NCBI GenBank assembly: GCA_018971485.1 | Contig: JAGXAQ010000014.1 | Location: forward strand, 1 to 42,690 | Source: Pseudomonadota bacterium | GTDB taxonomy: Bacteria > Pseudomonadota > Gammaproteobacteria > Burkholderiales > REEB80 | DNA: 42,690 nucleotides | Direction: 5' to 3' | Part shown: positions 7,691 to 17,416 of the stretch, piece after piece | Layout of the letters: each line of letters begins with the position of its first letter | How positions within the stretch are numbered: position 1 is the stretch's first letter | Made by a program: the position numbers and the translations under genes | The notes under the pieces: generated by a model | What the model was told of the DNA's origin: nothing | Database searches by the model: none | The model's input: the letters and a program-made list of their open reading frames with translations, nothing else

Positions 7691-8244
7691 CATTTGATGC
7701 ATTTTACACCACCTGTTTTATCTGACAGGACCAACAGATCCGATCCATTGAACTTAACAGGCAACATTCTTCACCCGGTAAAACTAAAAAAACCCTACTA
7801 AAACAATAAAACAAGTTTTTTTACACAAGAAAGTTCCAAAATAAAACAGCTTCGATAAAAAACCTAACACTAAAAACACCTGTTCATAACAGGCTATCAA
7901 TTACGCATGACGACTCTATAAACCTCACCTTTTCACAACCTCAAAAGACAACCTCTCAAAAAAAACATGCATAACGTAGAGGAGGGAGTTGCTTAAACGG
8001 GCCTTAAGTGTACAGATTCAATACCAAAATGAAATAAAATACCTTTTTAGCAGGTTTTTCAGGCGCAGGCAGCTTGCCAGGCTGGCAAAACCAAATAGCA
8101 TAGTTTCTTTCATCCCAATATAGCACTAAATAACCCTATCAGACCCTATTCGCATTATAAACAGGCATATAACTAGATTATCTATACATGTTTTATAGTT
8201 ATGCCACGCCCTATTTTTATATTTCTAGAATTATTATTTATCTT
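7691..8244. other. AT-rich gene-free region
   Basis: About 550 AT-rich bases downstream of two converging genes (the BI-1 family gene and rlmD). There is no supported reading frame. An isolated AGGAGGGAG at 7980-7988 is followed by no suitable start. A small RNA cannot be excluded, but I see no clear promoter-terminator pair. Confidence 0.45.
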
Positions 8245-9564
8245 TCAATTTCTCTCAAACAACATAATGGATTCGATATGGGACGTATGGGGGAACATAT
8301 TCAGAACACCCGCAGCTTTAGGCCTATACCCTTTTGCATGAACCAGAACATTAGCATCCCGCGCAAGAGTTGCTGGATTACAGGACACATAAACTATTCG
8401 TTTAGGTCCATTTTCCGGATCAATTGATTTAACAACTGCGATAGCGCCATCACGGGGAGGATCAAGCAGTATTTGATCAAAATGGCCCAATGCGGCCAAT
8501 CTTTCAAACGTCATTTCAAAAAGATTCTCAGCATACAAAGCGACTTTTTGGTCCAGACTATTTAATTGCGCATTACTTAATGCCCGGCCGATCAAGGCAT
8601 CATCCGCCTCAATACCCACAACCTGTCTAGCCATCCGGGCTAAGGGAAGAGTAAAATTACCCAGGCCACAAAAAAGATCCAGAATCGTCTCCTCTGGGCG
8701 CGGCTCAAGTAACTGCATCGCCTGATGGATCAAAACACGGTTCATTTCCGGATTGATTTGTGTAAATTCTGTTGGATAAAAAGGAAGGCGTAAATTAAAC
8801 TCGGGCAAACTGTAATATAACTCAGCTCCTGCTTCCGGGTAAAACCGGTATGCTGAAGCAGGTCCTTTGGATTGCAACCAAATTTCCAGATTATATCTCT
8901 CCGAAAATGCTCTCAGGATACCTTCGTCCTCTTTTACAAGGGGTTTCAATATCCTAAAGACCAGAGCTACAGTTATTTCCCCAACAGCCACTTCAATCTG
9001 GGGCAAATGAGAAACAATGGATAATTTTTGCACCATATCACGTAATGGCCCCAAAAGGCTTGCTATCGGCTGAGCCAATACATCACAGCTTAAGGTATCT
9101 ACAATGAACGAACTGCGTTTTTCATGAAACCCGATTAAAATTCCTTTCGTGGCCACATTGCGAACAGACAATCTCGCTCTATGACGATAATGCCAAGATA
9201 GCCCCTGTACTGCAGGCAGAATAACCTCGGGACGAACCCTGCCGATATGCCAAAGATTGTCTTCAAGAACACGTTGCTTCATGACAACCTGAGCCGACTC
9301 GCCTAAATGTTGAAGGCTACACCCCCCACACCGTTCAAATGCTGGACAACGGGGATCCACCCGCAAAGTCGATGCTTTAACAATATGGGTTGCCCTGCCT
9401 GTTTCAAAACTGGATTTGTTCCGGTAAAGCTCGTAATAAACAGTCTCGCCAGGCAAAGCACCCTCGATAAAAAGGGTTTTGCCATTCCTGTGCGCAACAC
9501 CCTGCCCTGCATGATCCAGGGATTCAATCAAAACCGGCTCTGCTGTCAACTGCGCTATCCTCAT
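8245..9564 (-). CDS. rlmD: 23S rRNA (uracil(1939)-C5)-methyltransferase
   Basis: Methylates U1939 of 23S rRNA using S-adenosylmethionine. The 439-residue length is normal. Order of domains: an N-terminal TRAM RNA-binding domain (about 5-70), a [4Fe-4S] motif CPAFERCGGC near residue 78 with a further cysteine at CDVLA near 163, then the Rossmann methyltransferase domain. The latter shows DLFCGLGNFTLPLA near 295, the LDPPRDGA motif near 369 and the catalytic nucleophile Cys in YVSCNPATLARD near 395. Start ATG 9564 has only a weak ribosome-binding site. It is transcribed alone. Confidence 0.95.
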   Translation of the reverse strand: MRIAQLTAEPVLIESLDHAGQGVAHRNGKTLFIEGALPGETVYYELYRNKSSFETGRATHIVKASTLRVDPRCPAFERCGGCSLQHLGESAQVVMKQRVLEDNLWHIGRVRPEVILPAVQGLSWHYRHRARLSVRNVATKGILIGFHEKRSSFIVDTLSCDVLAQPIASLLGPLRDMVQKLSIVSHLPQIEVAVGEITVALVFRILKPLVKEDEGILRAFSERYNLEIWLQSKGPASAYRFYPEAGAELYYSLPEFNLRLPFYPTEFTQINPEMNRVLIHQAMQLLEPRPEETILDLFCGLGNFTLPLARMARQVVGIEADDALIGRALSNAQLNSLDQKVALYAENLFEMTFERLAALGHFDQILLDPPRDGAIAVVKSIDPENGPKRIVYVSCNPATLARDANVLVHAKGYRPKAAGVLNMFPHTSHIESIMLFERN

Positions 9565-9788
9565 TTGCTACTTAAGACAATAAACCAGATATAATGTTTT
9601 TCTAGTCCCTGTGAGCAACCAGATCTTCTTGCAATCTGCAGTGACATCCATACCGGTTAAACCACACCTGCCAGATATTCCCAGTCTCACCCACCTTGCC
9701 TATTCAACCTACGTGAAAGCCGCATTGAATCGGCCAAGCCCTGAAAAACAAACTGCTGACATCAACCTTATATCAAGAAAATGTACGT

Positions 9789-10226
9789 CTATTTTTGTAC
9801 CCAGGCTCCTTTTTTTCTGACATACCACCCTGAAGGAGCCTTATCTATCCACCGTTGTGCAAAAATGGACCGGATCTGACCGGCCCACTCAGGATGACCA
9901 TTCGCCTCGGCCAGGGTGTCATAAAGCTGGAGCCTGGTTTCGTTATCAGCACGAATCAGGGCTTCAATCCGGCCACGATTGGCAAGAGGAATCCTGGAGG
10001 CATCATGCATGGCCATCATCCCATCATCCGTCAACCCGACTGTTCCATTCTGCAAATAAGGCCGAAGTATCAGAAACTGATCATGGAGTTCAGATTTAAT
10101 AGCATTAATTGCCGGGGTGTTGATTTCAAGATTAGCTGCCTGTTGAGCCTGGGCTAAAGGAATAGCTCCCGAATTACCCAACAAAAATAACGTAAACAAG
10201 GCAGAAAACAATACAAATCGTTTCAT
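9789..10226 (-). CDS. ydbL: YdbL family periplasmic protein (DUF1318)
   Basis: A 145-residue exported protein. The signal peptide (about 1-27, ending AQAQQAA) is followed by INAIKSELHDQFLILRPYLQ, a GTVGLTDDGMMAMHDAS segment and ASWY-like C-terminal GWYVRKKGAWVQK; this is the DUF1318 pattern. In E. coli, YdbL is a periplasmic partner that modulates the YdbH-YnbE lipid bridge. It follows ynbE by 14 bp, and the trio with ydbH is conserved, so function transfer is reasonable. It is the last gene of the probable operon starting at the NRAMP gene. Confidence 0.85.
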   Translation of the reverse strand: MKRFVLFSALFTLFLLGNSGAIPLAQAQQAANLEINTPAINAIKSELHDQFLILRPYLQNGTVGLTDDGMMAMHDASRIPLANRGRIEALIRADNETRLQLYDTLAEANGHPEWAGQIRSIFAQRWIDKAPSGWYVRKKGAWVQK

Positions 10227-10240
10227 AAAACTCTCCAGGG

Positions 10241-10438
10241 TTATTTGGTAGCAGGATTCTGGGGTGTACCAGGCACAGCCTGCGTTTTCTGATGGGGCTT
10301 AAGCTGCCACACATCATCTATGATGCGATCAGCCGCCTTTTTTGCAGCAGCAGCCGGAAAATAAATATTAATGGTGACACAGGCCGACAGTAAAAGAAAA
10401 AGACTTGCAGCAGCAATGAGTTGCGCTCGTATCACCAT
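10241..10438 (-). CDS. ynbE: YnbE family outer-membrane lipoprotein
   Basis: A 65-residue protein. The signal peptide ends at lipobox LSAC (Cys20), followed by VTINIYFPAAAAKKAADRII, the almost invariant YnbE signature. In E. coli, many YnbE copies stack on the periplasmic end of YdbH to complete a groove for phospholipids reaching the outer membrane. Here it sits between the glycine-zipper lipoprotein gene and ydbL (14 bp), downstream of ydbH, which fits that role. Confidence 0.9.
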   Translation of the reverse strand: MVIRAQLIAAASLFLLLSACVTINIYFPAAAAKKAADRIIDDVWQLKPHQKTQAVPGTPQNPATK

Positions 10439-10517
10439 CAGTTAACTCCTCTTTATCCTGAATCCAGGTTAATCCATATTGACTAGACAAATATCCCATG
10501 AAGATTTGCCATAAATA

Positions 10518-10970
10518 TTATTGTCTCGGTACAAGATGGGGGCGTTGTGACATGACAACATAAACCCTGGCATTCATATGAATAGCTGGATCATATTGCT
10601 CAATAATTGTAACCAGGCGCCCATTATGCAACCTGACAATATATTCTGCGGCCTGTTGTTGGGTCATTTTATTCTCCAGGGCCTCGCCTGCCACACCTCC
10701 TGCTATCGCTCCAACCAAAGCGCCAGCAATGGAACCCTTGCCCTGGCCTACATCACTGCCTGCCAGTCCACCCAGGACTGCGCCGGCAGGAACACCAACT
10801 GTAGACGTGCCCGACACTTTTACAGGCCGGATGGATACAACCACCCCTTCTACAGTTGGAACCGTATAATCAGCTGCATTGGATGAATAAACATTTCCTT
10901 GAAGATTAGGCGCACTGCAACCACTGATGAGCAATAAAAACAGTGCAGGCAACATAAACAAGATTTTCAT
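10518..10970 (-). CDS. Glycine-zipper outer-membrane lipoprotein, SlyB/Pcp-like
   Basis: The protein has 150 residues. A signal peptide ends at lipobox ISGC (Cys18). A glycine-zipper 2TM segment follows at about 75-100 (GAVLGGLAGSDVGQGKGSIA, then GALVGAIAGGVAGEALE). The C-terminus is a small beta domain (YIVRLHNGRLVTIIEQYDPA). SlyB-type proteins form ring-like complexes in the outer membrane and protect it under envelope stress in E. coli. It is inserted between ydbH and ynbE on the same strand with gaps of 64 and 79 bp; E. coli has no gene at that place, so its presence suggests a shared envelope-lipid function. Confidence 0.82.
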   Translation of the reverse strand: MKILFMLPALFLLLISGCSAPNLQGNVYSSNAADYTVPTVEGVVVSIRPVKVSGTSTVGVPAGAVLGGLAGSDVGQGKGSIAGALVGAIAGGVAGEALENKMTQQQAAEYIVRLHNGRLVTIIEQYDPAIHMNARVYVVMSQRPHLVPRQ

Positions 10971-11034
10971 ATCTACCTCTTCATAATATCTACTTTACCC
11001 TTGCTTCATCCGAAGATAACCAGCTGGCACCAGC

Positions 11035-13050
11035 CTAATGAATAACCGGTTTAAGTTTCCCACTGGTTGCTGCAATTAACCTATCGACTAAGACCTGCCA
11101 GTCTACTTCCCTATTGTGCCCCACAACAGTCAATGAAGGCACTCCCCCACCTGAAATAATCACAAACCCATTACCCATGTTTTTTATCCCGCCCATGTGG
11201 CAGACTCCCGCGCGTAAAGCGCAGGAAAGGCCTATCCGGCTATAACCAAAAGTGTGAAAGAAACGTAATATACCCTGCTGAATTGCTGCGCCAGCCCCTG
11301 AACCACCCAGCGCAGTAATATTCTTAACCGCTTCCTGGCTAATCCGTTTACGGTAATGGCCCTGGCTTGATTCAATGGTTGCATTAAAGTATAAGGGTCG
11401 CCAGTCATACAGCACAAGATTGCTGACCCGTGCATCCATCAGTCCTTCTATCGAACCAAATGAAAAGGCATGCGTCATTAGGCCTAAATCAACTTTTTCA
11501 GCATCAAAATTAGCTCGCAGCAATGCATTATTATCGAAAGGATGCGTAATTTCCAGTCCGCCTATAGTAATAGCACCATTAAACACGTTTGCCTTCACTA
11601 CCCCCCCCAGATCCAGACGATGATGGGCATAGGTTACGACAGGAATCCGAGCAGAAACCGCTCCACTCATTGAGGGCCATCCCAGTTCTTGAGACAGGCG
11701 TTTCATCGATACGGGTTTTAATTCTCCCCCGACAGACCACTTCCACTCAGAACCCTGTTTTTCTCCTGTAGCATTGCGAAGTTTTAATTGGCCATCTACA
11801 ACCGGAATATCCATCGTCTTAATCTGAAAGCTCAATCCACGCGTAACCACCTGGATACCAGCCGGACCAAATGGTATTTTTCTCCAGTGGCTCAATCCAA
11901 AATGAACTGATGCGGTACGTGCTCTATGTTGATCCCAGGGAAAATCAGCCGAAACATCACGAATTGCCCAGCTTTTACCATGGTTGACCAGACTCACATT
12001 GAATAATTGAACATGAAGCTGAACGGGCTGCCCTTCATGAATCTTAGCCATAAAACCAAGATAGCCGGACGCAACTGAATCACTCAGAACCGAGTCAGGC
12101 GCTACAAAGGGAGCAACAAACACAGGCCAGGCCCGGGCCAGGCTTATTTTAGAGGAAACCAGATTAACCTGATGGATTTTAAATGGAAAAAAATCAATCT
12201 CACCTGAAGCAGATAACTTCCCTGCCCCAGGAACAAACAAGGATGCTTTCGCCAGCTTCCAGCGCCCATAAGAATATGTCCCTTTTACTTTAAAAGAATC
12301 ACCTGCCTGGTTCAAATAAACCGGCTGAAAATACAGTTCCCCCTGTTCAGAACGTACTGTTGCAGCCCAATCCAGAGCCTGGGATCGTCTTGATGCAGCA
12401 AACAATACATGAAACTGTTCCTTATCTGCTGCATGGTTTCCGCTGGCATCTGAAAAGGCCATGTTGTGAATAGCCATTTGAACCCGCATCTGGTCAATCT
12501 GTTTATGTTTGCCGCTCACCAGTGCAACCCCGCTAAACCTACCCGAAGTGATTTTGACGTGGTGCGCTAACAATAACAAATGATCTAACATGTCAAGCTG
12601 AACCCCATTCCATTTCGCCTTAATCTGCCAATCAGCCGTTAATTTGGCCTTAAGCCTGAACTGCTGATGAGGCCTTTTCAAGGTAAGCTGCAACATATGG
12701 GAATCAAACCGATAAAATAAGCGCAATCGATAACGCCGCAGAGCGATACCGAGCTCCCCCTGGCATCGTAACTTCTGGCTGGTCCATTGAAATGACGTAC
12801 AATCCAGTTGAACATGATACAGATGCTGGCCAAGAATACTCAATTGGGCAATAGACAGATGCAAGGGCCCTGTCTTGTCGTACCCATCTCCGGAAAGTTT
12901 CAGGCCGTGAAAAGAAAAATTCGGGCCTGAAACATCTGATACGGTTAAATTAAGAGCCAAGGCCTCATGGGGAACAAGCCAGCCCAAAAAAACCAGCCAG
13001 CCCGCCAGCATGGATTTGCGCACCACCTTGTTCCAGACACAATTGAGCAT
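11035..13050 (-). CDS. ydbH: YdbH family inner-membrane-anchored lipid-transport protein
   Basis: A 671-residue AsmA-like protein, shorter than E. coli YdbH (879). An N-terminal anchor lies at about 10-32 (SMLAGWLVFLGWLVPHEALA), followed by a long beta-rich periplasmic region. The C-terminal YdbH domain (about 480-665) has GGSGAGAAIQQGILRFFHTF, two cysteines in LSCALRAGVCHM and a final VDRLIAATSGKLKP. YdbH, TamB and YhdP redundantly move phospholipids between the membranes in E. coli. It starts only 10 bp after the NRAMP gene, implying cotranscription. A second start at the Met near residue 15 is possible; no strong ribosome-binding site distinguishes them. Confidence 0.85.
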   Translation of the reverse strand: MLNCVWNKVVRKSMLAGWLVFLGWLVPHEALALNLTVSDVSGPNFSFHGLKLSGDGYDKTGPLHLSIAQLSILGQHLYHVQLDCTSFQWTSQKLRCQGELGIALRRYRLRLFYRFDSHMLQLTLKRPHQQFRLKAKLTADWQIKAKWNGVQLDMLDHLLLLAHHVKITSGRFSGVALVSGKHKQIDQMRVQMAIHNMAFSDASGNHAADKEQFHVLFAASRRSQALDWAATVRSEQGELYFQPVYLNQAGDSFKVKGTYSYGRWKLAKASLFVPGAGKLSASGEIDFFPFKIHQVNLVSSKISLARAWPVFVAPFVAPDSVLSDSVASGYLGFMAKIHEGQPVQLHVQLFNVSLVNHGKSWAIRDVSADFPWDQHRARTASVHFGLSHWRKIPFGPAGIQVVTRGLSFQIKTMDIPVVDGQLKLRNATGEKQGSEWKWSVGGELKPVSMKRLSQELGWPSMSGAVSARIPVVTYAHHRLDLGGVVKANVFNGAITIGGLEITHPFDNNALLRANFDAEKVDLGLMTHAFSFGSIEGLMDARVSNLVLYDWRPLYFNATIESSQGHYRKRISQEAVKNITALGGSGAGAAIQQGILRFFHTFGYSRIGLSCALRAGVCHMGGIKNMGNGFVIISGGGVPSLTVVGHNREVDWQVLVDRLIAATSGKLKPVIH

Positions 13051-13060
13051 GAGATTAAAA

Positions 13061-14326
13061 TCAACCTAAAATACCACTCATTCCAGCATAAACACCAAAC
13101 ACCGATGTGACAACCACAACTATCGCCACCAGCAGGGCATATCCTCCCTTGAGACGATAAGGATCCGGCAGGGCACGTGTTGCAAGCAAAAACAGGAAAA
13201 CAAGAACAATCGGCAACAGGAGGGCATTCATGACCTCAACCGCCACAGTAATATCAACCAGATTAACCCCACTTAATACAACATAGGCAGCCACAAGCGT
13301 CACCAGGGTAAACACCGTATAAAACCAGGGCGCTTCTCGAGGATGATGCTCAAGAGAACGCTTGTAGCCTAGCACCTCGCCCAACCCCCAAGCAGTGGTC
13401 AGCGAAACCACAATAGCCGAAATAAAAGCAGCGCCCAATATTCCCAAGGCAAAAACAATCTTGCCTATCTTTGAACCCAGCATGGGAGTTAATGCATCGG
13501 CTATCTGCTGAACAGTATCAAGAGGGACATGAGGATTAATTCGGCCTAGAGTTGCTGCAGTTGTGATAAGCACTGCAGCCATAATGACCTGGGTCACCAC
13601 TGCCCCTAACGCAGTATCCAATCTTGCCCAGGTCAAGTCCTCCGCAGTCAGGCCCTTGTCCAAAACCGCTGACTGCTGATAAAAAATCATCCAGGGCATA
13701 ATCACCGCACCGATATTCGCAGCAGCCAGATACAAGTAATGCGAATTATTAAGCGGCAATTGAACAAAACCATGCACCATTGCAGCGAGCTTTGGGTGGG
13801 CATACCAGGCCACCCCAATAAAAACAAGCTCAAACATGCCAAATAAAATCGCAATTCGTTCGATAGCCAGATAAGAGCCGGTCCAGACCATGACAAGCAG
13901 AAAAGAAACAGTCAGCAGCATGCTCACCCACTGAGGGACACCAAAAAGCAGCCCTGCACCTGCAATTCCAGTCATTTCTGTCACTAAAGCGCCAATACAG
14001 GCCAGCATAAGCGTTGTGACAGAAAGCCATGCCCAGCCTACACCAAATTTTTCGCGAATTAATTCACCATGCCCCCGGCCAGTGACCAGCCCCAAACGCA
14101 AGGTCAACTCCTGCGCCAGATATAAAACAGGAATCAGAATCAGCTGAAGCAGCAAAAGCTTATAACCCCATCTTGCGCCGCTTTGTGCCGCCGTAATAAT
14201 ACTCCCTGCATCCGTATCAGCAAGCATCACCACCAATCCAGGGCCAATTACTGCCAATAGATGCCGCCGTTTCATGGCCCGTTTACGACGACCATGCTCC
14301 GGTTTTTGAATATGTTCAGTGGGCAA
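13061..14326 (-). CDS. Divergent NRAMP (SLC11) family divalent-metal transporter
   Basis: A 421-residue inner-membrane protein with about eleven hydrophobic helices of the LeuT fold. It starts with TTG at 14326, preceded by GGAGGA at 14331-14336. In helix 1 the family's metal-binding DPGN is replaced by DAGS (GPGLVVMLADTDAGSI, about 30-45), keeping the Asp but not the Pro or Asn. In helix 6 the MPH motif reads MPW, followed by MIFYQQSA. Known Mn/Fe NRAMPs use Asp, Asn and Met from these motifs, so the substrate cannot be assumed; magnesium-type relatives also diverge here. A perfect Fur box lies 18 bp upstream of the start, so iron control is likely. ydbH follows after 10 bp. Confidence 0.85.
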   Translation of the reverse strand: MPTEHIQKPEHGRRKRAMKRRHLLAVIGPGLVVMLADTDAGSIITAAQSGARWGYKLLLLQLILIPVLYLAQELTLRLGLVTGRGHGELIREKFGVGWAWLSVTTLMLACIGALVTEMTGIAGAGLLFGVPQWVSMLLTVSFLLVMVWTGSYLAIERIAILFGMFELVFIGVAWYAHPKLAAMVHGFVQLPLNNSHYLYLAAANIGAVIMPWMIFYQQSAVLDKGLTAEDLTWARLDTALGAVVTQVIMAAVLITTAATLGRINPHVPLDTVQQIADALTPMLGSKIGKIVFALGILGAAFISAIVVSLTTAWGLGEVLGYKRSLEHHPREAPWFYTVFTLVTLVAAYVVLSGVNLVDITVAVEVMNALLLPIVLVFLFLLATRALPDPYRLKGGYALLVAIVVVVTSVFGVYAGMSGILG

Positions 14327-14343
14327 TTAATCCTCCATTAATA

Positions 14344-14370
14344 TGTAAATGATAATTATTATCATTTACA
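14344..14370. promoter_or_regulatory. Fur box upstream of the NRAMP-ydbH operon
   Basis: A 27-bp perfect palindrome. Its centre (14350-14364) is TGATAATTATTATCA, exactly the 7-1-7 Fur consensus, extended by TGTAAA and TTTACA on the flanks. It lies 18 bp before the TTG start of the NRAMP gene and would block the promoter when Fe-Fur is bound. No divergent gene shares it, since cysM on the other side ends at 14562 on the same strand. Confidence 0.9.
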
Positions 14371-14561
14371 TTAGCACACACCATCCCCCCTGTCAAAATG
14401 CCCACCCGTTATCAGAAATCATCTGGATTAACTGTAACAAGAATTCCGGCTTACACCATCTAAACCTTCTTAAATCCGTTGCAGCTTCTTTATTCAGGTC
14501 AGGTTTGACTCACGAACAAAACCTGCTTCTGGTTTAAGAAGCATAAATATGACCAAAGAAG

Positions 14562-15452
14562 TTAATCCGGGAAAATTCCAGTCGACAGATACCGATCGCC
14601 CCGATCACAGACAATGGAAACGATCACAGCATGCTCAACCTCGTCACTGATCTTCAAAGCAGCGGCCAGGGCCCCTCCTGATGAAACACCGGCAAAAATT
14701 CCCTCTTCCCGGGCCATACGTCGGGTCATGTCTTCCGACTCTGCCTGAGTGACCTCAACAATTCTATCCAGCCTGTCCCGTTCAAATATGGCAGGCAGAT
14801 ATTCTAGTGGCCATTTTCGAATTCCAGGAATACTGGATGCATCATCTGGCTGTACCCCAACAATCGTAATGGCAGGATTCATTTCCTTGAGATAGCGCGA
14901 ACAACCCATGATGGTTCCAGTCGTACCCATGGCACTGACAAAATGAGTCAAAGTTCCTGAGGTGTCACGCCAAATTTCAGGACCTGTAGTCTCATAATGT
15001 GCCAATGGATTATCGAAGTTGCCGAATTGATTCAAAATGATCCCTTCGCCCTGTTTCTGCATATAATTGGCTCTATCGATCGCGCCTTCCATACCCTTAT
15101 CCTTTGGTGTCAGGATAATATCCGCGCCATAGGCACGCATAATCTGCCGTCGTTCTGCACTCATATGCTCAGGCATCACCAGTTTGATCCGATACCCCAT
15201 CATGGCAGCCACCATGGCCAGAGCAATACCAGTATTGCCACTTGTTGCCTCTATCAGGGTATCACCCGGATGAATGGTTCCGCGTAATTCAGCCTTAAGT
15301 ATCATGGACAGGGCAGGACGATCCTTAACTGATCCGGCCGGGTTATTGCCTTCAAGTTTCAGCAAAATCACATTCGTACTGTTCCCTTGCAAGTGCTTTA
15401 GCCTCACAAGGGGCGTATTGCCTATCGTTTCCTCAATAGTTCTGTACATCAC
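14562..15452 (-). CDS. cysM: Cysteine synthase B (O-acetylserine sulfhydrylase, PLP)
   Basis: Makes cysteine from O-acetylserine and sulfide or thiosulfate. The length of about 296 residues fits CysM. It has ETIGNTPLVRL at the N-terminus, PLP lysine in NPAGSVKDRPA near residue 42, the substrate loop SGNTGIALA near 69, and phosphate-binding GTTGTIMG near 177. Start could be GTG 15452 or the adjacent ATG 15449; AAGG lies 7 bases before the ATG. It follows hldD by 9 bp and is probably cotranscribed with it, an arrangement seen in betaproteobacteria. Confidence 0.94.
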   Translation of the reverse strand: MMYRTIEETIGNTPLVRLKHLQGNSTNVILLKLEGNNPAGSVKDRPALSMILKAELRGTIHPGDTLIEATSGNTGIALAMVAAMMGYRIKLVMPEHMSAERRQIMRAYGADIILTPKDKGMEGAIDRANYMQKQGEGIILNQFGNFDNPLAHYETTGPEIWRDTSGTLTHFVSAMGTTGTIMGCSRYLKEMNPAITIVGVQPDDASSIPGIRKWPLEYLPAIFERDRLDRIVEVTQAESEDMTRRMAREEGIFAGVSSGGALAAALKISDEVEHAVIVSIVCDRGDRYLSTGIFPD

Positions 15453-15461
15453 TTAACCTTT

Positions 15462-16454
15462 TTAGACGCTTTCAGCCAGTTGATCCACATATCGGGCCAC
15501 CCCTTCTTCTACGGACATGAATGAATCCGTATAACCAGAGTCGCGCAACTGGTGAAGATCAGCCTGGGTATAATTCTGGTATTTACCCACCAACGCCTGT
15601 GGAAAAGGAATATATTCAATAAGATGCCCAGCAAGCAGATCATTCAGGCTTAAGGGGGCTTCCTGACGTTGTTTGCGTACAGAATTCACTACAGCACAAG
15701 CTACATCATTAAAGGTTTGCGCACGTCCTGTTCCGAGATTGAATATCCCGGATAAATGGATGTTATCCAGAAAATGCAGATTAACCCGAACCACATCATC
15801 GACATAAATGAAATCGCGCCGCTGCATCCCGTTCATGATACCTTCTGCTCCCTCGAACAAGCGAACCTGGCCCTCTTTTACAAACTGGTTATAAAAATGA
15901 AAGGCAACCGAGGCCATCCGGCCTTTATGTGATTCACGCGGACCATAAACATTGAAATAACGAAATCCGGCGATCTGGGATGTTTTTCTGTCCATCACCT
16001 GCCGTACATACTGATCAAACAGGAACTTGGAATAGGCATACACATTTAAGGGAGCCTCATGCTCCCTGGATTCCTGGAATATCGGCCCATTACCATAAAC
16101 AGAAGCACTAGAGGCATACAGAAACGGAATGTGTTGTATTTGGCACTGCTCAAGAAGCGTAACAGAATACCGGTAGTTATTCTCCATCATATAACGCCCA
16201 TCCTGCTCCATGGTATCTGAACAGGCTCCTTCATGGAACAGGGCCTGAACAGGAGACTTGAGCCGGCCCTGGGAAAATATCTGGAGAAAGGCCGCCTTAT
16301 CCAGAAAATCGGCCACATCCAGATCAGAAAGGTTCGCTATCTTGTCACCCTGAGCCAGGTTATCGACGGCCAGTATATCAGTGATTCCACGCTCATTGAG
16401 TGCACGAACCAGATTAGATCCAATAAATCCTGCTGCTCCAGTCACAATATACAT
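15462..16454 (-). CDS. hldD: ADP-L-glycero-D-manno-heptose-6-epimerase
   Basis: Epimerises ADP-D,D-heptose to ADP-L,D-heptose for the lipopolysaccharide inner core. 330 residues, NAD(P)-dependent short-chain dehydrogenase fold: [15 protein letters not shown] at residues 5-19, catalytic Tyr-Lys in [14 protein letters not shown] near 137-141, and the HldD-type [14 protein letters not shown] near 208. The start codon overlaps the stop of the heptose kinase gene by one base (TGATG), so the two are translationally coupled. Confidence 0.95.
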
Positions 16455-17416
16455 CAGTCACACTCCAGCATGGTTGCAGCCCATAATTCCTCACGGCTCA
16501 ATACAGCAGTGCCAAACTTACCAACCACAACACCAGCTGCACGATTCGCCAATCGAACCGCTTCTTCCATCGTTGCTCCACAAGCCAGCATAAGGCCCAA
16601 AGTTCCGATCACCGTATCCCCTGCACCACTTACATCAAACACCTCCCGGGCTCTGGCAGCTTCGTGTACCATCCCACTCCCGCTGAAAAGAGTCATCCCC
16701 TCCTCACTACGTGTCACCAGCAGGGCCTGAAGATTAAGGCGCTCACGCAATGCCTGGGCCCTGGACTCCAGATCTGATTCATTCTTCCAACGCCCACAGA
16801 CTTCGCGTAATTCCGAACGGTTAGGAGTCAGCATGGTAGCATTGCGATAACATTCATATTCATCACCCTTCGGATCAACCAAAACTGGCGTTCCCAACTG
16901 GTTACAGGCCAGAATCATATCCTGCACATGCGCAAGCGCCCCTTTACCGTAGTCCGACAGGATCACAAGATCCGCCTCCTGAATCAGCTCATGAAAATCA
17001 CACAGCTTGCGATCAAGGCTCTCCGTACTGGGTTTTTTTTCAAAATCAATCCGCAGCAACTGTTGCTGGCGCCCTACAACACGCAGCTTGATTGTCGTAT
17101 CAATTGCCTCATCCCGATGAAGCCTGCTTTCAACACCATCAGCTTTCAGTAAGCGTTCGAGAGTCAACCCTGCCTCATCTTCACCCACAACCGATAGCAG
17201 TGAAACGCTGCCTCCAAGGGCAGCAATATTGCGTGCCACGTTAGCCGCACCCCCTGCCCGCTCATCGACCTGATGAACATGGACAACTGGAACTGGGGCT
17301 TCTGGAGAAATACGGCTTACTTCGCCAAACCAGTATCGATCAAGCATTACATCGCCAACCACCAGCACCCGTACCTGCGAAAGACGTGCAAAAAGATCAT
17401 TGAGCATTTCATTCAC
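16454..17416 (-). CDS. hldE: D-beta-D-heptose 7-phosphate kinase (kinase domain only)
   Basis: Phosphorylates D-glycero-D-manno-heptose 7-phosphate at C1. At 320 residues it corresponds to the PfkB-type kinase half of the bifunctional E. coli HldE. The nucleotidyltransferase half (rfaE2/hldC) is not here and must be encoded elsewhere, as in other betaproteobacteria. Motifs: [17 protein letters not shown] near 16, [15 protein letters not shown] near 55 and the ATP-site [18 protein letters not shown] near 258 with catalytic Asp. It starts with GTG overlapping the pyrF stop (GTGA) and is coupled to pyrF and hldD. Confidence 0.93.

Follow-up and report, generated by a model that had tools for sequence, protein, structure and literature searches.

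Can the genes of a lipid bridge between the inner and outer membranes be placed under the control of iron? To our knowledge, the control signals of the redundant AsmA-type lipid bridges are poorly understood, and we know of no earlier iron-controlled lipid bridge, so that a genuine case would be the first. The question is raised by a locus in a stretch of 42,690 nucleotides from a bacterium of the order Burkholderiales (GenBank assembly GCA_018971485.1, contig JAGXAQ010000014.1), hereafter the window. From its sequence it had been predicted that a Fur palindrome, an NRAMP metal transporter gene and the genes ydbH, ynbE and ydbL form one iron-controlled unit. The arrangement itself is confirmed: behind the palindrome lie NRAMP, ydbH, a lipoprotein gene, ynbE and ydbL, all on the minus strand (Table 1). 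The spacing between NRAMP and ydbH is exactly 10 bp (13051-13060), with ynbE and ydbL further along the same strand, in agreement with the original prediction.

Table 1. Features of the NRAMP-to-ydbL locus and its flanks, in window coordinates.
Feature	Position	Strand	Remarks
rlmD	8245-9564	-	frequent downstream neighbour of the block
YdbL (DUF1318)	9789-10226	-	PF07027, E 2.6e-17
YnbE-like lipoprotein (Cys-VTINIYFP...)	10241-10438	-	gene order, lipobox, short strand motif
SlyB-like glycine-zipper lipoprotein	10518-10970	-	glycine zipper; pairwise SlyB match; between ydbH and ynbE
ydbH-like, distant YdbH relative	11035-13050	-	671 aa; remote profile comparison and gene order
NRAMP-family transporter	13061-14326	-	421 aa; TTG start; PF01566, E 6e-73
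Possible internal ydbH promoter, TTGTCA-17-TATGCT	13085-13113	-	within NRAMP codons 404-414
Fur-type palindrome	14343-14371		perfect, 29 bp; between -35-like TTGACA and NRAMP start codon
Promoter-like TTGACA-17-TAATGT	14368-14396	-	-10 overlaps Fur palindrome; -10 weak (3/6)
Terminator-like hairpin	14524-14543	-	18 nt after cysM stop; different hairpin in same gap of the second genome
cysM	14562-15452	-	presumed ancestral upstream neighbour of ydbH

The gene labels do not all stand on the same ground. Those of NRAMP and ydbL are upheld by Pfam (PF01566, 246 bits against 29.8; PF07027, 63.6 bits against a cut-off of 27), whereas the assignment to YdbH is remote, drawing on profile-profile comparison and gene order. 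Searched by itself, the ydbH-like protein matched nothing in Pfam or NCBIfam, and BLAST against E. coli YdbH, a protein of 879 aa to which it is only remotely related, gave no significant hit. At this locus PF11739 exceeded its Pfam cut-off in 0 of 18 genomes; at E up to 1 it matched one of 17 members (E 1.7e-4), whose 21 bits fell short of the 26.3-bit cut-off. A profile of the 17 members found nothing significant in the single E. coli YdbH sequence or among solved structures (best E 0.65), and among the comparisons made only a larger profile, set against the YdbH profile, gave detectable homology (hhalign probability 89.7, score 63.4, 327 columns, against at most 23.4 in 20 column shuffles and 29.2 for the reversed profile). 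A single-sequence AlphaFold model of the protein had a mean pLDDT of 32. The YnbE-like protein did not match the Pfam YnbE model up to E 10; gene order, the lipobox and a short strand motif, the TIN stretch, which by eye it has in common with E. coli YnbE, point to its putative label. The remaining lipoprotein has a glycine zipper and is 30% identical to E. coli SlyB over 128 aa in a pairwise comparison (E 4e-12); E. coli slyB adjoins slyA, whereas the gene here lies inside the ydbH-ynbE block.

In E. coli, ydbH, ynbE and ydbL form a tightly spaced operon in that order, and the order is kept here with the lipoprotein gene interposed in the genus. The E. coli operon differs in that ldhA lies upstream in divergent orientation, no transporter gene adjoins it, and ydbH and ynbE are not separated by a lipoprotein gene; the best Fur-type match in the 300 bp upstream of E. 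coli ydbH has 6 mismatches. A likeness for the upstream part is E. coli mntH, an NRAMP gene behind a Fur site, which is reportedly Fur-repressed (Patzer and Hantke 2001, cited in PMC3788343). E. coli mntH is not known to stand at the head of an operon of lipid-bridge genes.

The order cysM-NRAMP-ydbH-lipoprotein-ynbE-ydbL-rlmD was found in both genomes of the genus, namely the window's own and the sole other one found, here called the second genome. The NRAMP-ydbH junction measures 10 bp in the former and 11 bp in the latter, and the two NRAMP proteins are 81% identical. The two assemblies are drafts, of 35 and about 280 contigs, which might suggest that the junction is an accident of annotation or assembly without biological meaning, but gene order and spacing agree between the separate genomes, and this agreement already refutes that reading, whose probability we regard as negligible. 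Restriction to a single strain, named beforehand as an outcome that would count against the prediction, is likewise excluded, as the second genome has the same order, junction and box. Beyond the genus the picture changes: among 42 ydbH-like loci from other families of the order, chosen as related loci carrying both ydbH and ydbL, NRAMP was found near ydbH in none and the lipoprotein insert in none, and in 25 of the 42 ydbH lies directly behind cysM, within 95 bp. The junction is thus conserved in both genomes of the genus but confined to it in the material examined, and NRAMP with its box, as well as the lipoprotein gene, look like genus-level insertions into an older cysM-ydbH-ynbE-ydbL block. 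The G+C content of NRAMP is not clearly distinct from that of its neighbour genes, and therefore gives no sign of recent transfer.

The palindrome ahead of NRAMP is perfect, as predicted, though slightly longer than the 27 bp first given. Fur sites were sought with the 19-bp consensus AATGATAATNATTATCATT, which has 18 specified bases. The palindrome matches all 18 and is the only site in the window with up to 3 mismatches (0.04 expected); the box before NRAMP in the second genome has 1 mismatch, and genome-wide these are the only sites with up to 2 mismatches in their respective genomes. The remaining Fur-type sites listed in both genomes have 3 mismatches each, near the control level. The 250 bp ahead of each of ydbH, ynbE, ydbL and the lipoprotein gene hold nothing comparable, the best matches there having 7-9 mismatches. 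The promoter-like pair at the palindrome was not picked up by a stricter promoter scan; its counterpart in the second genome, TTGACA-18-TAAATT, matches 10/12 consensus positions, is the best pair of its region and has almost the same spacing to the box. Counted by eye, TTGACA stands 27 and 28 nt upstream of the box's GATAAT in the two genomes, and in a MAFFT alignment the two TTGACA boxes are not aligned with each other. A near-consensus palindrome in the promoter region and a Fur protein encoded in the genome (C4:52604, 151 bits) give the locus the features of a Fur regulon member at the sequence level.

The transporter bears on which metal might be sensed. The closest solved chain is PDB 7QIA (E 7e-56), which we take to be EleNRMT and which likens the protein to the NRMT magnesium transporters; the NCBIfam MntH score of the protein here is 112 bits, below the cut-off of 430 bits. 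According to PMC8806188, classical SLC11/NRAMP proteins carry the motifs DxxN and A/CxxM, NRMT proteins carry DxxG-TxxA/T, and the metal-site methionine is associated with transition metals, for example Mn or Fe. The protein here shows DxxS-AxxM (DAGS, 39-42; AVIM, 207-210): it differs from NRMT proteins in this signature and has the second of the classical MntH motifs and lacks the first. No Rfam element matched in 8000-16500, and hence there is no M-box riboswitch in that segment. The retained methionine, together with four Fur-family proteins in the window's genome, would suit a palindrome read by another metalloregulator, either a Fur-family protein that responds to Mn or one of the three other Fur-family paralogues, with manganese or zinc control as the result. 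Against this stand the site's classical Fur consensus, a best Fur with 52% identity to that of E. coli and, in both genomes, a related though weaker site ahead of an operon for a cupredoxin and an FTR1 iron permease; we hold this alternative to be quite improbable.

Fur boxes also accompany the transporter elsewhere, as they precede 15 of 80 related NRAMP loci (the best 80 of at least 551) against about 0.1 expected in shuffles, which indicates that the switch belongs to the transporter. ydbH, ynbE and ydbL, considered as usual downstream genes of this NRAMP clade, were found at 0 of these 80 loci (tblastn, E 1e-5, flanks up to 6 kb, often ended by contig edges), and inspection by eye of the 79 informative ones gave no general downstream partner; on these loci the idea that the clade usually carries envelope genes downstream was rejected. 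The co-location of NRAMP and ydbH could be a neutral insertion, with ydbH-ynbE-ydbL on its own promoter in the 3' end of NRAMP and the bridge without meaningful iron control. A candidate for such an iron-independent promoter, named in advance as evidence against the prediction, does exist in both genomes, its activity being putative: the same hexamers with the same spacing lie 34 and 35 nt before ydbH. Furthermore, codons 404-414 of NRAMP are unchanged between the genomes in 10 of 11 cases, against 139 of 325 comparable codons (43%) gene-wide, and the stretch ranks first among the gene's 12-codon windows for synonymous conservation. However, promoter-like pairs that, like this one, match 9/12 consensus positions occur about as often as expected by chance (10 against 9.1 in the window, 9 against 9.1 in the second genome), 12% of codon-flag shuffles gave an equally good codon window somewhere in the gene, and the figure of 0.65% for the last part of the gene comes from a test chosen after the element was seen. 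The element may drive ydbH without iron control, yet the 10-bp junction has no listed terminator-like site, and we consider a bridge free of iron control rather unlikely. An intergenic promoter would not fit into the gap.

The proposed transcript is flanked by terminator-like hairpins, behind cysM in both genomes and, in the second genome, also right after ydbL, where a G+C hairpin of 9 pairs has a T-rich tail. In the window others lie inside it, including one 41 nt into ydbH, followed by a run of T, and another just after ydbH; both are absent at those places in the second genome. Counts of such sites are near chance (8 against 5.9 expected in the window region, 5 against 6.3 in that of the second genome).

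The claim that the bridge is under iron control with the transporter thus draws on the junction in both genomes, the strongest box in both, the presence of Fur, the tight gap and the flanking hairpins, but meets the genus-confined junction, a Fur box general to the NRAMP clade and the candidate internal promoter. That iron controls the bridge genes is the favoured, though still putative, reading of these sequences. What was observed comprises the order of the genes, the box and the conservation of both; the mechanism proposed from them, to which we give a probability of roughly 0.6, is as follows. A cassette of Fur box and NRAMP would have separated cysM from the old ydbH-ynbE-ydbL block in the genus ancestor, ydbH giving up its tight position behind cysM, and the SlyB-like gene would have come to lie between ydbH and ynbE. 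Iron-loaded Fur would block the box overlapping the -10 region; in iron shortage Fur would leave, allowing a single transcript from NRAMP through ydbH, the SlyB-like gene and ynbE to ydbL, so that metal import would rise along with the YdbH-YnbE phospholipid bridge, which spans the envelope, and with its helper YdbL. For ydbH a low, iron-independent basal supply probably persists from the putative promoter inside the 3' end of NRAMP, in which case control by iron would raise the level of the bridge and not switch it on or off.

That iron starvation induces the AsmA-type bridge (YdbH-YnbE-YdbL), the SlyB-like lipoprotein and the metal importer as one functional unit is a more tentative proposal, possible though with the odds against it. 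TamB and YhdP are also encoded in the genome; the YdbH bridge is therefore probably not essential alone, and it is not evident why iron shortage should call for more YdbH. If true, the proposal would mean that the supply of lipid between the membranes follows the metal status of the cell; a natural operon tying a lipid bridge to Fur would offer a concrete, testable regulatory input and would suggest when YdbH is wanted. PMC11226057 describes YdbH as the lesser bridge in E. coli. Among the matches listed, titles and the beginnings of abstracts held no report of iron control of ydbH. In iron-nanoparticle-selected E. coli, ydbH appears, within the passages of PMC8003623 that were covered, in mutation tables only, with one low-frequency intergenic change.

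The seven genes from cysM to rlmD follow one another in identical order in both genomes of the genus, the window's own draft genome of 1.93 Mb (G000) and the one other genome found (G001) (see table). The original prediction had placed a Fur palindrome at the head of an operon running from the NRAMP gene to ydbL, and with it a lipid bridge under iron control. The spacing of 10 bp claimed between NRAMP and ydbH was confirmed in the window, where no Shine-Dalgarno sequence was seen in the gap by eye, and the junction is kept in G001 with 11 bp, so that the neighbourhood is not peculiar to this strain. To our knowledge, the joining of a Fur-box NRAMP gene to a ydbH-ynbE-ydbL block that encloses a SlyB-like gene is new, and in a literature search it was not reported in the titles and abstract starts among the matches listed. 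The ydbH-ynbE-ydbL gene set is already known, as is Fur control of NRAMP genes (Patzer and Hantke 2001, cited in PMC3788343). Judged by sequence, the arrangement is a union of known parts, restricted to this genus among the genomes examined, and its physiological meaning is putative.

Features of the block and of related loci (C, contig; L, DNA stretch taken from a genome)
Feature	Location	Strand
cysM	15452-14562	minus
NRAMP gene, TTG start	14326-13061	minus
ydbH-like gene, 671 codons	13050-11035	minus
Glycine-zipper lipoprotein gene (SlyB-like)	10970-10518	minus
65-codon lipoprotein gene (ynbE-like)	10438-10241	minus
ydbL, DUF1318	10226-9789	minus
rlmD	9564-8245	minus
Fur-like site with cupredoxin, FTR1 iron permease and unknown gene (three genes)	L153:6042-7995 (G000:C28), L154:8319-10321 (G001:C111)	
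Second G000 NRAMP, 593 aa	L023:4831-6612 (G000:C30)	
NRAMP followed by WQFLQV protein	L063, L066, L075, L087, L097	

The window's ydbH-like protein alone gave no family match and no match to E. coli YdbH, than which it is about 200 residues shorter, and among 17 relatives a single one matched PF11739, weakly and below the cut-off (E 1.7e-4). A 44-member profile compared with a profile of E. coli YdbH and PF11739 members aligned over 327 columns with a probability of 89.7 and a score of 63.4, against at most 23.4 in 20 column-shuffled controls and 29.2 in the reversed one. Together with the kept ydbH-ynbE-ydbL gene order, this comparison makes a remote YdbH homologue likely. The ynbE-like product has VTINIYFP directly after the lipobox cysteine; in E. 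coli YnbE, ITINMNV comes at some distance after the lipobox. YnbE and YdbH together are described as moving phospholipid to the outer membrane in E. coli (PMC11784454), where the major roles are ascribed to YhdP and TamB (PMC11226057). Since both of these proteins are also encoded in G000 and G001, ydbH is presumably redundant in this genus as well.

A ydbH-like match was found in 18 of 60 related genomes, a set that contains the window's own (G000, G001 and 16 of other families). We examined 54 stretches around ydbL or ydbH, including further genomes of the order; using the window's proteins as queries, 5 lacked a ydbL match and 6 a ydbH match, leaving 43, namely G001 and 42 loci of other families, one per genome. 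None of these 42 has an NRAMP or SlyB-like gene in the stretch examined, which extends some 1.4 to 9 kb beyond ydbH on its upstream side; a few are shorter, starting at or just before cysM, and L163, cut off upstream, is uninformative. Instead, a same-strand cysM precedes ydbH in 28/42, and in 25/42 the open ydbH frame reaches to within 95 bp of the cysM stop. No Fur-box match with fewer than 6 mismatches occurs in the 300 bp preceding ydbH at these loci, and the lowest count ahead of cysM, where testable, is 4 (L180). Furthermore, among 200 genomes of the order ydbL was found in 55 and an NRAMP match, apparently in the same draw, in 40; 11 had both, which share a contig in G000 and G001 only. 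These two surveys argue that cysM-ydbH-ynbE-ydbL is most likely the ancestral order. The Fur-box NRAMP gene and the lipoprotein gene would have entered the block in this genus, where NRAMP replaced cysM as the upstream neighbour of ydbH. In one locus of another family (L197, between about 2659 and 8660; genome G025) ydbH and ynbE lie about 6 kb apart, so the pair can be split.

The box, located in the gap from cysM to NRAMP, was predicted as a perfect palindrome of 27 bp; it is indeed perfect and ahead of NRAMP but measures 29 bp (14343-14371) and includes AATGATAATTATTATCATT. At up to 3 mismatches it is the single AATGATAATTATTATCATT-type site in the window (0.04 expected). Genome-wide, the same limit gave 5 sites in G000 against 2 in a backwards control and 6 against 4 in G001, and the only site with fewer than 3 mismatches was the NRAMP box in G000 and its orthologue, with 1 mismatch, in G001. 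A search for the 15-base core that allowed 2 mismatches gave 13 sites against 11 in G000, placing other weak sites there at chance level, and 26 against 14 in G001, where further weak sites may exist. When a GAGAAT half-site was allowed with 1 mismatch, we found 2 sites against 1 in G000 and 5 against 2 in G001. The second G000 site (C28:15041) lies upstream of cupredoxin and FTR1 iron permease genes, and a G001 site with 3 mismatches (C111:22318), below the limit of that scan, lies at the corresponding position ahead of their G001 counterparts; this cluster is probably a second Fur target. No iron gene was seen by eye beside the four other G001 sites of the scan, for which open frames only were viewed. 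Both Fur-like sites common to the two genomes consequently front metal-uptake genes, the NRAMP box being the better, and a Fur protein with 52% identity to that of E. coli is encoded on G000 contig C4.

The switch appears to be older than its link to ydbH. Using two peptides, one of them AVIMPWM, we took the best 80 of at least 551 NRAMP relatives from named genomes; they span many phyla at 57-71% identity. Upstream of 15 of these 80 genes, within about 250 bp, lies a Fur-type site with no more than 3 mismatches; 20 dinucleotide shuffles gave 0.1 such loci on average and never more than 1. The genes ydbH, ynbE and ydbL were not found near any of the 80. These counts make the Fur switch a habit of this NRAMP clade, and ydbH a newcomer which joined behind it. 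In 5 of 79 NRAMP loci a protein of roughly 200 aa with a shared WQFLQV motif is encoded no more than 40 bp downstream of NRAMP; the one scanned gave a sub-threshold LPD7 match.

Upstream of the box, TTGACA is followed after 17 nt by TAATGT in the window (9/12 consensus) and after 18 nt by TAAATT in G001 (10/12), positions at which the box overlaps the -10 or comes immediately after it. The G001 pair was the top one of its region in a general promoter scan, from which the window pair was absent because its -10 matches just 3/6; in a MAFFT alignment the two TTGACA boxes do not stand opposite each other. A terminator-like hairpin lies 18 nt past the cysM stop in the window, and a different one between cysM and NRAMP in G001, where ydbL is also directly followed by a G+C hairpin of 9 pairs that has a T-rich tail. 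Further hairpins within ydbH and just past its end in the window have no counterpart at those places in G001, and totals are near chance (8 against 5.9 in the window, 5 against 6.3 in G001).

Iron control of ydbH, as originally proposed, is favoured by the Fur-type box heading NRAMP and by the junction kept in G001, but a candidate internal promoter speaks against exclusive control. In both genomes TTGTCA-17-TATGCT lies within NRAMP, 34-35 nt before ydbH (window 13085-13113). The codons holding it (404-414) are identical at 10/11 between the genomes, against 139/325 comparable codons in the whole gene, and this stretch is the top 12-codon window of the gene in synonymous conservation. With codon flags shuffled, 12% of trials matched it somewhere in the gene and 0.65% did so in the last part, the latter a post hoc figure since the place was picked after the element was seen. 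Coming from two genomes only, this is a hint of a ydbH promoter in the 3' part of NRAMP, and would imply basal ydbH expression from inside NRAMP plus read-through from the Fur-controlled promoter under iron starvation.

The closest solved relative of the window NRAMP by sequence is 7QIA (E 7e-56), which we take to be the magnesium/manganese transporter EleNRMT. Metal-site motifs are given as DxxG-TxxA/T for NRMTs and DxxN-A/CxxM for classical NRAMPs (PMC8806188). The window protein, with DAGS (residues 39-42) and AVIM (207-210), has DxxS-AxxM, which matches neither and is intermediate between both; its kept methionine would fit a transition metal, in line with the Fur box. An Acidobacterium protein of an NRMT-related group is reported to rescue a manganese-uptake defect fully and a magnesium defect at low millimolar magnesium only, and is regarded by its authors as a likely manganese transporter (PMC4072509). 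The second G000 NRAMP has, by eye, the NRMT (magnesium-type) pattern, DAGG and TTVA, and extends C-terminally past the Nramp domain, where the Pfam match stops at residue 466.
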